Assembly (NCBI GenBank): GCA_019873685.1
Contig: JAIOAT010000002.1
Location: forward strand, 1-64,000
DNA length: 64,000 bases
Source of the DNA: Chloroflexota bacterium
Lineage (GTDB): Bacteria; Chloroflexota; Anaerolineae; Aggregatilineales; Ch27
Direction: 5' to 3'
Shown: positions 23,314-28,743 of the stretch, piece by piece
How the letters are laid out: each line of letters begins with the position of its first letter
Numbering within the stretch: the stretch's first letter is position 1
Position numbers and translations under genes: made by a program
Notes under the pieces: generated by a model
What the model was told of the DNA's origin: nothing
The model's input: the letters and a program-made list of their open reading frames with translations, nothing else
The model's database searches: none

Positions 23314-25155
23314 ATGCGGATGTTGATTGGCACTATCACGATTGTGGTCCTCCTGGCTTTTCTGGCACCCATGACCAGTGTCTTCGCCCAGGGTGGCGAG
23401 GGTGAGGTAGTTTTGCCCGAGGTGGATCCTCTGGCGGTAGTGGGGGACATTTTGACGGCGGGGAGTTCGACGGTAGGGCCGTTGAGCGAGCGGATGGCGG
23501 AGCGTTTTCGCGACGAGGGGTACAGCGGGAACATCACGATCGACATTATTGGGAGCGGGGCCGGGATTGAGCGGTTCTGTGTGAATGTCGAGACGGACAT
23601 TGCCAATGCGTCGCGGCGGATCAAGGACAGTGAGGTTGAGGCGTGCCGGGCGAACGGGCGTGAGCCGGTGGAGTTCCGGGTGGGGACGGATGCGCTGGCG
23701 GTGGTGGTGAGTGCGGCGAACGACTTTGTTGAGGATGTGACGCTGGAAGAGCTGGCGTTGATCTTCGGGACGGCGGAGAAGTGGTCGGACGTGCGTGCGG
23801 AGTGGCCGGCGGAGCCTATTCTGCGGTTCATTCCGGGGACGGATAGCGGGACGTTCGACTACTTTGTGGAAGTGGTATTTGGGAAGGATGAGGGACCGAT
23901 TCTGTCGGCGAGCAACCTGCAGTTGAGCGAGGACGACAACGTGCTGGTGCAGGGGGTGCTGGGCAGCCCGTATGCGGTAGGGTTCTTCGGGTATGCGTAC
24001 TACCAGGAGAATGCTGATGCGCTACGGGTGCTGAGCGTTGAGGGTGTAGAACCGACGGCGGAGGCGGTGGACAACTTCACGTATCCGCTGGCGCGGCCAC
24101 TGTTCCTGTACAGCACAGCGGCGATCATGCAGGAGAAGCCCCAGGTAGCAGCCTTCATCGCCTACTACCTGACCCATGTGAACGAGGAGATTCGCGAAGT
24201 CGGGTACTTCCCGGCTAACGCGGAGGCACTCAACGCCGCCAAACGCGCCTGGTTGCAGGCAATGGGAATGGGCGAGGTAGTTTTGCCGGAGGTGGATCCT
24301 CTGGCGGTAGTGGGGGACATTTTGACGGCGGGGAGTTCGACGGTAGGGCCGTTGAGTGAGCGGATGGCGGAGCGTTTTCGTGACGAGGGGTACAGCGGGA
24401 ACATCACGATCGACATTATTGGGAGCGGGGCCGGGATTGAGCGGTTCTGCGTGAATGTCGAGACGGACATTGCCAATGCGTCGCGGCGGATCAAGGACAG
24501 TGAGGTTGAGGCGTGCCGGGCGAACGGGCGTGAGCCGGTGGAGTTCCGGGTGGGGACGGATGCGCTGGCGGTGGTGGTGAGTGCGGCGAACGACTTTGTT
24601 GAGGATGTGACGCTGGAAGAGCTGGCGTTGATCTTCGGGACGGCGGAGAAGTGGTCGGACGTGCGTGCGGAGTGGCCGGCGGAGCCTATTCTGCGGTTCA
24701 TTCCGGGGACGGATAGCGGGACGTTCGACTACTTTGTGGAAGTGGTATTTGGGAAGGATGAGGGACCGATTCTGTCGGCGAGCAACCTGCAGTTGAGCGA
24801 GGACGACAACGTGCTGGTGCAGGGGGTGCTGGGCAGCCCGTATGCGGTAGGGTTCTTCGGGTATGCGTACTACCAGGAGAATGCTGATGCGCTACGGGTG
24901 CTGAGCGTTGAGGGTGTAGAACCGACGGCGGAGGCGGTGGACAACTTCACGTATCCGCTGGCGCGGCCACTGTTCCTGTACAGCACAGCGGCGATCATGC
25001 AGGAGAAGCCCCAGGTAGCAGCCTTCATCGCCTACTACCTGACCCATGTGAACGAGGAGATTCGCGAAGTCGGGTACTTCCCGGCTAACGCGGAGGCACT
25101 CAACGCCGCCAAACGCGCCTGGTTGCAGGCAATGGAGTTGGTGGTGGAGTCGTAG
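23314..25155 (+). CDS. pstS: Double-headed phosphate-binding protein PstS
   Basis: Extracytoplasmic phosphate receptor of the Pst importer. The 613-residue product has a signal peptide (about 1-26, ending SVFAQ) and then two tandem PstS domains at residues 30-319 and 320-609. By eye the two are identical in protein sequence except at the last few residues. Each copy has the family's ligand loops: ILTAGSSTVGPL, IGSGAGIERF, ANASRRIKD and PGTDSGTFDYF. Normal PstS has one such domain (~290-350 residues). The protein may bind two phosphates or present two heads to the permeases. The ATG at 23314 follows TTGAGGAC. No lipobox is present. A stem-loop separates it from pstC. No phoU or phoBR is in the window. 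Confidence 0.9.
   Translation: MRMLIGTITIVVLLAFLAPMTSVFAQGGEGEVVLPEVDPLAVVGDILTAGSSTVGPLSERMAERFRDEGYSGNITIDIIGSGAGIERFCVNVETDIANASRRIKDSEVEACRANGREPVEFRVGTDALAVVVSAANDFVEDVTLEELALIFGTAEKWSDVRAEWPAEPILRFIPGTDSGTFDYFVEVVFGKDEGPILSASNLQLSEDDNVLVQGVLGSPYAVGFFGYAYYQENADALRVLSVEGVEPTAEAVDNFTYPLARPLFLYSTAAIMQEKPQVAAFIAYYLTHVNEEIREVGYFPANAEALNAAKRAWLQAMGMGEVVLPEVDPLAVVGDILTAGSSTVGPLSERMAERFRDEGYSGNITIDIIGSGAGIERFCVNVETDIANASRRIKDSEVEACRANGREPVEFRVGTDALAVVVSAANDFVEDVTLEELALIFGTAEKWSDVRAEWPAEPILRFIPGTDSGTFDYFVEVVFGKDEGPILSASNLQLSEDDNVLVQGVLGSPYAVGFFGYAYYQENADALRVLSVEGVEPTAEAVDNFTYPLARPLFLYSTAAIMQEKPQVAAFIAYYLTHVNEEIREVGYFPANAEALNAAKRAWLQAMELVVES
23401..25140 (+). repeat. Two 870-bp tandem in-frame repeats inside pstS
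   Basis: Copy 1 is 23401-24270 and copy 2 is 24271-25140. Aligned by eye at an offset of 870 bases, I count five single-base differences before the final few bases. All five are third-codon-position changes that keep the amino acid, and all lie in the first ~175 bases. The remaining ~690 bases look identical. Each unit covers the mature binding domain but not the signal peptide or the C-terminal tail. Confidence 0.95.
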
Positions 25156-25263: not shown

Positions 25264-26475
25264 ATGCAAAACCAGGCAACGCTGCAAAAGCGTGAGATCA
25301 TCGCAACCGCATTGAACCGGCAGGCAGCTCGCGGGGAGCGTTCTGCTCTTCATCAGCGGACGCGCCTGTGGGAACGCGTGATCAGGTATCTGTTGCTGAT
25401 GTGCGGCGTTGTCTCCATCTTCACCACGATCGGGATTGTGGTGGTGCTGGGGAGCGAGGCGCTGCTGTTCTTTACGCCGCCAACCTGGATCGACTCGTTC
25501 AAGACGCTGCAGGAGCCGATCACGGCAACCGCGACAGAGCTGGCTATTTCCGGCGCGGGGACGCCGCTGGAAGCGGGCGAGATCATCCGCATGGTGAACG
25601 AGGAGATGCGCGTTGTCTCCGTTGATGCTGCTGCGGGGACAATCACCGTGGAACGGGCGATCAATGGCACGGTTGCGGCGCCGTTGACGGCGGGGGTGGA
25701 CATTCTGCGGGCGGATAGCGTCACGCTGGGTGAATTCCTGACCTCCACACAGTGGATGCCACAACTGGGCAGCTTCGGCGTCCTGCCGCTGCTTAATGCC
25801 ACGCTGATGATCAGCGCCGTGGCCATGCTGGTGGCTATCCCGCTGGGTCTCAGCGCAGCGATCTACCTGTCGGAGTACGCCAGTCCGAAGGCACGGGCGG
25901 TGCTTAAGCCGGTTCTGGAGTTACTGGCTGGCGTCCCTACGGTGGTCTTTGGCTACTTTGCCCTGACCTTTGTGACCCCGCTGCTGCGTAGCCTGTTCGG
26001 AATTGACGTTGTGGAGATCTACAACACGGCTTCCGCCGGGATTGTCGTGGGGATCATGATCATCCCGACGGTGGCTTCGATCAGCGAAGACGCGCTACGG
26101 GCGGTGCCGCAGTCGTTGCGCGAAGCCTCATATGGTCTGGGGGCTACCCGCCTGGAGACAGTGACGCGGGTGGTGGTTCCAGCGGCACTCTCGGGTATTG
26201 TGGCCTCCTTCATTCTGGGCGTTTCCCGCGCCATCGGTGAGACCATGATTGTCTCTATCGCTGCCGGGGCAGGTCCGAAGTTCACCTTCAACCTGTTCGC
26301 AGGCGCGGAGACGATGACCGGCCATATTGTGCGTATCAGCAGCGGCGACATCAGCTACAACTCGATCGACTACAACAGCCTGTTTGCGATCGGCCTGTTG
26401 CTGTTTGTGATTACCCTGGCGCTGAACATCTTGAGCCGGGCGGTGACGGCGCGCTTCCGGGAGGTTTATCAGTAG
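25264..26475 (+). CDS. pstC: Phosphate ABC transporter permease PstC
   Basis: One membrane channel subunit of the Pst importer. The 403-residue protein is longer than the usual ~300. After the first membrane helix (about 40-68) there is an extracytoplasmic insert of about 90 residues (roughly 70-160), with [18 protein letters not shown] and [13 protein letters not shown]. The remaining helices follow. The EAA loop is [20 protein letters not shown] near 280, and [15 protein letters not shown] is typical of PstC. The ATG at 25264 is used, and pstA starts one base after the stop. Confidence 0.92.
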
Positions 26476-26476
26476 G

Positions 26477-27910
26477 ATGGGCGAACAGGTTCAGGATCGG
26501 CAGTCGTTTGTGCCGGGGGATCAGGCGTTTCAGGATGATCTGCGCCGGCGTCATCGGCGGGCCAAGCGCTGGCAGGTCTTCTTCTTTGCGTCGCTGGTAG
26601 TGGGGTTGCTGGCCTTGCTGGCGCTCTTCGCCAATGTCGCGGACGAAGCTTTTGGCACCATTGCTATCGCCAGCAAATACTCCGAGGCGGAAGTCCTGGC
26701 GGCGCTGAGCGAGGCCAGGGGAGTCACCGTTGAGGGGCCGCTGGAGGCGCTGGAGAATGACGATCTGGCCCAGGTGCTTGCGCTGTATATCCCGCGCCGC
26801 GTGCCGGTGATCGTGCGCGACGAATTGAGCCGGGTCAAACCGGAAGACTTCACTCGGGTGCCGCTGCGCGAAGCCCTGGCCGGGGCAACTTTGCCTCCTG
26901 ACATCGCTGACCTGACCATCTCGCAACTGAGCCTTGAGCAACAGACGGCTATCCTGAGCGCCAATCTCACACATGATGTCCTGTATGCCCGTGTGCTCAA
27001 CGACGTGATCGGCCTGGACATCCTCAAGAGCTGGACACTCTCCCGGACGTTGTTCGACTATGCCGGGATCGAAGCGGAGTTCCAGGCGCTGGTGGCGGCG
27101 CAAGACCCGCCGAATCCGCAGCTCAAGCCGCACTCGTGGCTCAACTCGACCTTTGTCACCGGCACGCAGTCCTCTTACCCAGAACTGGCCGGCATCCGAA
27201 CGGCTATTCTGGGGACGCTGTGGATCATGGCGCTGACCATGCTCATCGCCTTCCCGCTGGGTGTGGGTGCGGCGATCTACCTAGAGGAATATGCCCACAG
27301 CGGTAACTGGCTGGAGCGGCTGATCGAGACGAATATCCGCAATCTGGCCGGGGTGCCCTCGATCATCTACGGGCTGCTGGGGCTGGCGATCTTCGTGCGG
27401 GCGCTGGCGCCCATCTCCAGCGGGGCGCTGTTCGGCTTCAACGAGGCTAACGGGCGCACGATCTTCTCTGCGGCGATGACGATGGCGTTGCTTATCCTGC
27501 CGGTGATCATCATTGCTGCGCAGGAGGCAATCCGGGCCGTGCCCCAATCCATCCGCGACGCCAGCTACGGGCTGGGCGCAACCCAGTGGCAGACGATCTG
27601 GTATCAGGTGTTGCCGGCGGCGTTGCCCGGCATCCTGACCGGGACGATCCTGTCGATGTCGCGGGCGATTGGGGAAACTGCACCGCTGATCGTCATCGGC
27701 GCGTCGGCGGTGATCTTCGTCGATCCCTCCGGGCCATTTTCCAAGTTCACTGCTCTGCCGATCCAGATCTGGCAGTGGACGGCGCGCCCGCAGGAAGAAT
27801 TTCGAAATCTGGCGGCGGCAGCAATCATTGTGCTGCTGGCGCTCCTGCTGGTGCTGAATTCAGCAGCCATCATCCTGCGCCAGCGGGTCAGTAACCGGTT
27901 GCGTGGTTAG
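26477..27910 (+). CDS. pstA: Phosphate ABC transporter permease PstA
   Basis: Second channel subunit. The 477-residue protein is well above the usual ~290. After membrane helix 1 (about 36-60) an extracytoplasmic region of roughly 170 residues follows, with [19 protein letters not shown] and [15 protein letters not shown], before the next helix near 240. The core then reads [15 protein letters not shown] and [19 protein letters not shown], the EAA coupling loop. Its start is one base past the pstC stop. The insert is larger than that of PstC, and the two may together form a docking platform for the double-headed PstS; that link is inference. Confidence 0.92.
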
Positions 27911-27951
27911 GTGGTGGCGCCTTTGCATTGTAAGTTCTGGAGTAGTGGTTG

Positions 27952-28743
27952 ATGATGTCATCGAATGGCGACGGCCGCTATGCCGTCCAGATCCGGCATC
28001 TGAACGTTTTCTACGGCCCCAGGCTGGCCGTGCGTGAGATCACCATGCCGATTGCTCGCAACAAAATCACGGCCTTCATTGGGCCGTCCGGGTGTGGCAA
28101 GAGCACCGTCCTGCGGGCGATCAACCGGATGAACGACCTGATTCCGGAAGCGCGTGTTGAAGGCGAAGTGATTTACCGGGGGGAGAACATCTACCGCCCG
28201 GAGATCGACCCGGTGGAAATCCGGCGGAGGATCGGGATGGTCTTTCAGAAGCCGAATCCGTTCCCCAAGAGCATCTATGACAACGTGGCCTATGGGCCGC
28301 GCGTGCTGGGGATCAAAGATCGGCGGACGCTCGACCAGATTGTGGAGCAGAGCCTGCGTCAGGCGGCGCTGTGGGATGAAGTCAAGGACGATCTCAAGAA
28401 GTCAGGGCTGGCGCTCTCCGGCGGGCAACAGCAGCGCCTGTGCATCGCGCGCGCCTTGGCTGTCGAACCGGACGTGATCCTGATGGATGAGCCTTGTTCT
28501 GCCTTGGACCCCATCGCTACCGAGCGCATCGAGGACCTGATGAAGGAACTGGTGGTGGACTACTCCATCGTGATCGTGACGCACAATATGCAGCAGGCCC
28601 GGCGCGTTTCTGAATACACCGCGTTTTTCACCACGGACGAGTCGCGCACGGGAGAGCTGGTGGAATTCGACCGAACGGACAAGGTCTTTTCGATGCCATC
28701 CGATCCGCGCACAGCTGACTATATTGCCGGGCGCTTTGGCTAG
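27952..28743 (+). CDS. pstB: Phosphate ABC transporter ATP-binding protein PstB
   Basis: The ATPase that drives phosphate import. The 263-residue protein shows Walker [10 protein letters not shown], then the PstB-typical [19 protein letters not shown]-loop [19 protein letters not shown], signature LSGGQQQR, Walker [16 protein letters not shown] and [14 protein letters not shown] 27952 (with a second ATG at 27955) follows GGAG; the TTG at 27949 is also in frame. The operon ends here with a terminator. No phoU follows, although phoU is common at this place. Confidence 0.95.

Follow-up and report, generated by a model that had tools for sequence, protein, structure and literature searches.

A double-headed PstS phosphate-binding protein recurring in the Chloroflexota, and permuted PstS-like domains in PstA and PstC

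A free binding protein is usually pictured as a shuttle with a single head. The PstS family described by TIGR02136 and PF12849 carries one head per chain, and its member 4jwo, from Planctomyces limnophilus, is the best solved match, by sequence and by structure, to the protein reported here, a PstS encoded in a 64,000-nucleotide stretch of DNA from a Chloroflexota bacterium, hereafter called the window. This protein shares the fold, the motifs and the operon partners of the single-headed family. It departs from the usual rule of one binding domain per chain by having two heads, a variant common to no fewer than 28 further genomes. GlnPQ likewise strings two binding domains together in a single chain, and its structure (PDB 6h30) was the one tandem importer entry that ranked high in a structure search with the window model. 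However, in GlnPQ the two domains have different specificities and form part of the permease polypeptide, whereas the window heads are identical and belong to a separate secreted protein, which is therefore not a member of the GlnPQ type. Placing the GlnPQ domains in tandem hardly alters their affinities or conformations, and the domains work independently (PMC8025302). Circular permutation of a binding protein is documented as well, in TpMglB-2 of Treponema pallidum (PMC4990184). PstS2 of Streptococcus pneumoniae (PDB 4h1x) appears to be circularly permuted too, judging from the order of its alignment: residues 14-129 of the window head align to residues 155-262 of the chain, and the N-terminal half of the family falls on its C-terminal half. 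The window PstS is not permuted. A re-ordering of the same kind is found in the PstS-like domains inside Chloroflexota PstA and PstC described below, but TpMglB-2 and 4h1x are free proteins whereas the Chloroflexota domain sits in a periplasmic loop of a permease. Tandem binding domains and a permuted binding protein are thus already known, and the novelty here would be the free tandem PstS; none was found in the open-licence literature searched, which is weak evidence of absence.

The window belongs to a 4.1-Mb draft genome (109 contigs, 96.75% complete). Its pstS gene lies directly before pstC, pstA and pstB on the same strand, all three scoring above their curated cut-offs (Table 1), and is distinct from pstC (pstS ends at 25155 and pstC starts at 25264). 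On sequence grounds, its product is the predicted substrate-binding component of the phosphate importer pstSCAB, phosphate binding being expected from the conserved motifs. A scan for promoters and terminators around pstS was uninformative.

Table 1. Features of the window pst operon, and loci with a permuted PstS-like domain inside a permease subunit
Feature	Position	Strand	Evidence or remark
pstS, tandem (double-headed) phosphate-binding protein, 613 aa	23314..25155	+	ORF and family profile matches
Signal peptide, about residues 1-25, without lipobox cysteine	23314..23388	+	sequence; cleavage site by eye; low-confidence separate N-terminal helix in model
Head 1, 290 aa	23401..24270	+	family match and model
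Identical stretch of 685 nt, candidate gene-conversion tract	23581..24265 (= 24451-25135 in copy 2)	+	copy comparison
Head junction A-M-G-M-G-E	24262..24276	+	sequence resembles neither outer end of the repeat
Head 2, same protein as head 1 for 289 residues	24271..25140	+	family match, comparison and model
pstC, permease subunit, without PstS-like insert	25264..26475	+	TIGR02138, 265.8 bits (cut-off 196.45)
pstA, permease subunit, without PstS-like insert	26477..27910	+	TIGR00974, 248.4 bits (cut-off 193.45)
pstB, ATPase subunit	27949..28743	+	TIGR00972, 395.7 bits (cut-off 343.2)
PstA with permuted insert	L043:8004-10271, L083:8164-10392, L037:7925-10147, L047:8174-10471, L064:7753-10101
PstA with permuted insert, further loci	L027, L039, L045, L057; also L148 (G305:C8)
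PstC with permuted insert	L067, L068, L069:6937-9078, L075:7100-9178; also L142, L143, L145, L147

An earlier note, made from the letters of this DNA, had described positions 23401-25140 as two phosphate-binding domains of about 290 residues arising from an in-frame tandem duplication. This description is borne out by the open reading frame, by a direct repeat with a spacing of 870 nt (23400-24265 and 24270-25135) and by the profiles, TIGR02136 matching two stretches of the protein (445.9 bits for a curated cut-off of 206.6) and Pfam PF12849 matching twice. One signal peptide does precede both heads, and the heads are, as had been noticed, the same in protein sequence apart from the last few residues, with 288 of the 288 compared residues identical. 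The ligand loops, said to be all present twice, are so for the conserved motifs of the family (GSSTV, GSGAG, ASR, PGTDSGTFDYF and SEDDN), which is the level at which they were compared; these motifs show little or no variation in either head across an alignment of 23 tandem proteins. In the AlphaFold2 model, both heads are predicted with high confidence and their mutual orientation is uncertain (mean pLDDT 89.7, pTM 0.58), the latter value being compatible with loosely coupled heads. Each adopts the two-lobed type of the PstS fold, with a TM-score to 4jwo of 0.87 by target length, and the model thus suggests two complete, separately folded heads.

At the DNA level, the two copies differ at five positions (23403, 23418, 23487, 23511 and 23580 in copy 1), all synonymous, a pattern with a simple chance of about 0.003 which argues for selection on the protein sequence of both copies. 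All five differences are confined to the first 181 of 866 nt, for which the simple chance is 4e-4, and the following 685 nt are identical. The 3' part of the copies has probably been homogenised by recombination, although this identical run could also stem from the assembler's consensus in a draft genome. In the only other genome of the genus examined (G001), PstS is 92% identical and single-headed, so that the doubling in the window is probably recent. Two further members of the family are single-headed as well, and one more yielded only a distant paralogue. The dS is 0.024 between the window copies against about 0.30 to G001, which as an outgroup polarises four of the five differences into three changes in copy 1 and one in copy 2. 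The simplest reading is that the doubling was probably gained recently in this species. The same genome also encodes (G000:C62, L093:4701-6590) a second tandem PstS-like protein, about 630 aa long and ancient, whose heads are 29% identical and whose ligand motifs are altered; no pst genes are among its neighbours. A protein of this type is kept in all five genomes of the family (also G001, G002, G003 and G004; L008, L096-L098).

The tandem architecture is not unique to the window, as the earlier note had implied. The search of relatives that it proposed covered genome contigs together with samples at class and phylum level. It revealed a tandem PstS in no fewer than 29 genomes of the Chloroflexota, the window included; this count comes from genome samples. 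Further candidates were cut by contig ends, and one additional genome was confirmed (G207). The outcome named as refuting, a fusion confined to this genome, was not observed. These genomes comprise four in a single contig (G318, G380, G214 and G547) and two isolates, Ornatilinea apprima and Candidatus Chloroploca asiatica. Within one tandem protein of the Chloroflexota, the heads are 78-100% alike. The tandem genomes are scattered among single-headed relatives, and in a tree of the domains the two heads of one protein are mostly sisters. On this tree the tandem or single state requires 14 changes, each being a gain or a loss, and well-supported branches make 7 of these unavoidable. Since the linkers between the heads vary in length and sequence, several independent gains are favoured, and the design has apparently been acquired several times in the phylum. 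Among 198 genomes of Spirochaetota, 26 matches exceeded 180 bits and all lacked the tandem architecture, a contrast with the Chloroflexota that is suggestive only; the ten best matches listed among plasmid records were all of single-head length.

Some variants of these loci deserve mention. A lipobox and a long tether are present in most other tandem PstS. The window protein has neither, and may consequently be released as a free chain or stay attached through a signal sequence that is not cleaved. At another locus (L144, G347:C39), pstC is preceded by two pstS-like ORFs, of 341 and 479 aa, that are neighbours but not joined, a gene duplication without fusion. Frames of about 1,070 aa had hinted at a fusion of PstS with PstC; this was rejected because the two are separate ORFs in the loci inspected.

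Older tandems indicate what becomes of such a duplication. At three loci (L075, L103 and L105), the first heads form one group on the tree, so that the duplication predates these species. There, dS is 0.16-0.42 within a protein and 0.72-1.13 between species, and dN is 0.040-0.057 for the same heads across species versus 0.072-0.093 for different heads. This combination points to concerted evolution, with synonymous sites homogenised while head-specific residues persist; the pattern is weaker in family f81. In many tandem proteins the leftover differences between heads lie close to the repeat boundaries, a distribution that conversion of the core would be expected to produce. The dN/dS between heads is 0.08-0.27 in the inherited tandems (the same three loci and all six tandem genomes sampled from f81). 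Recombination between the copies would thus keep the heads alike, with purifying selection acting on both.

The explanation judged best as a whole, and rather probable, is that the two-headed PstS arose by in-frame, head-to-tail duplication of the whole domain and that the tandem raises docking and the effective concentration of heads. Each head would bind one phosphate independently, closing as a single-headed PstS does, and a chain would deliver two loaded heads to PstCAB, either of which could dock. The effective concentration of heads and the number of docking attempts per secreted chain would rise, as is thought for the tandem domains of GlnPQ. Since affinities are unchanged in GlnPQ, the expected gain lies in effective concentration, not in affinity. 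The suggestion of the earlier note, that two heads could raise local phosphate capture or let one dock while the other loads, is plausible by the same analogy.

The most serious alternative, unlikely as it stands, is a neutral and transient duplication, in which copies often arise and collapse by recombination and are tolerated since the fold permits its termini to be linked, with no advantage for transport. The scatter of tandems, with singles interleaved, fits such a turnover, and the window copies are young and surrounded by single-headed relatives, so that in the window itself the doubling may be neutral. A useless copy should nevertheless be lost or decay, and the inherited tandems (L075, L103, L105 and f81) keep both heads under purifying selection, with head-specific residues persisting. 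A division of labour, in which the heads are retained for different jobs, one docking and the other storing, scavenging or signalling, seems improbable: old tandems do retain head-specific residues, and diverged pairs do occur, as in the ancient protein of G000:C62 kept throughout the family, but the window heads are identical in protein, and the differences in old tandems are often at the repeat ends, where conversion is weakest. Finally, the doubling of a single-copy gene by the assembler is very improbable for the window in spite of its fragmented draft genome and of 685 identical bases exceeding the usual short-read length, because the junction, unlike either outer end of the repeat, must derive from reads and the copies differ at synonymous sites only, with changes in both by comparison with G001; and the same architecture in single-contig genomes and isolates rules out such an artefact as a general explanation of tandem PstS.

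PstS-like domains are found in a second setting, within the permease subunits of other Chloroflexota importers. In PstA of nine loci, such a domain occupies the first periplasmic loop with its second half first (about q158-290, then q5-160). In PstC of four loci and of further genomes of family f2, the domain is cut elsewhere (about q39-289, then q1-47). The permease parts of these proteins are confirmed by curated profiles, and the PstA insert is reduced to shortened remnants at L059 and L079. The order of the inserts is that of a slice across the junction of a tandem PstS; a tandem PstS query matches insert-bearing PstA contiguously (188-480, 202-490 and 195-483). In a model of PstA from L043, the permuted domain has a pLDDT above 85 throughout, the membrane part being much lower. 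On the tree, the PstC inserts form one clade (100%), and the PstA inserts, for which a single origin is not claimed, have long rows and all share one side of a poorly supported branch (64%). The inserts branch deep and long, and their origin may therefore be old. PstA and PstC of the window contain no PstS-like insert. The window PstC does have an extra periplasmic segment (25470-25720) between membrane helices 1 and 2, and the matching place is interrupted by the permuted PstS domain in L075 and its relatives. Tentatively, tandem PstS may represent a living intermediate of circular permutation, from which slices spanning the junction were captured at two different break points, in the PstA loop (about head residue 165) and in the PstC loop (about residue 42). 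This possibility would account for importers with built-in permuted heads, some of them besides a tandem PstS, and would make the window the tandem step with empty sites.

A double head that recurs, with copies homogenised and both under purifying selection, would offer natural pairs of single and tandem proteins for testing tethered multivalency in the speed of ABC importers. The permuted heads in PstA and PstC would in turn make a sequence-level case for circular permutations arising from tandem duplications.
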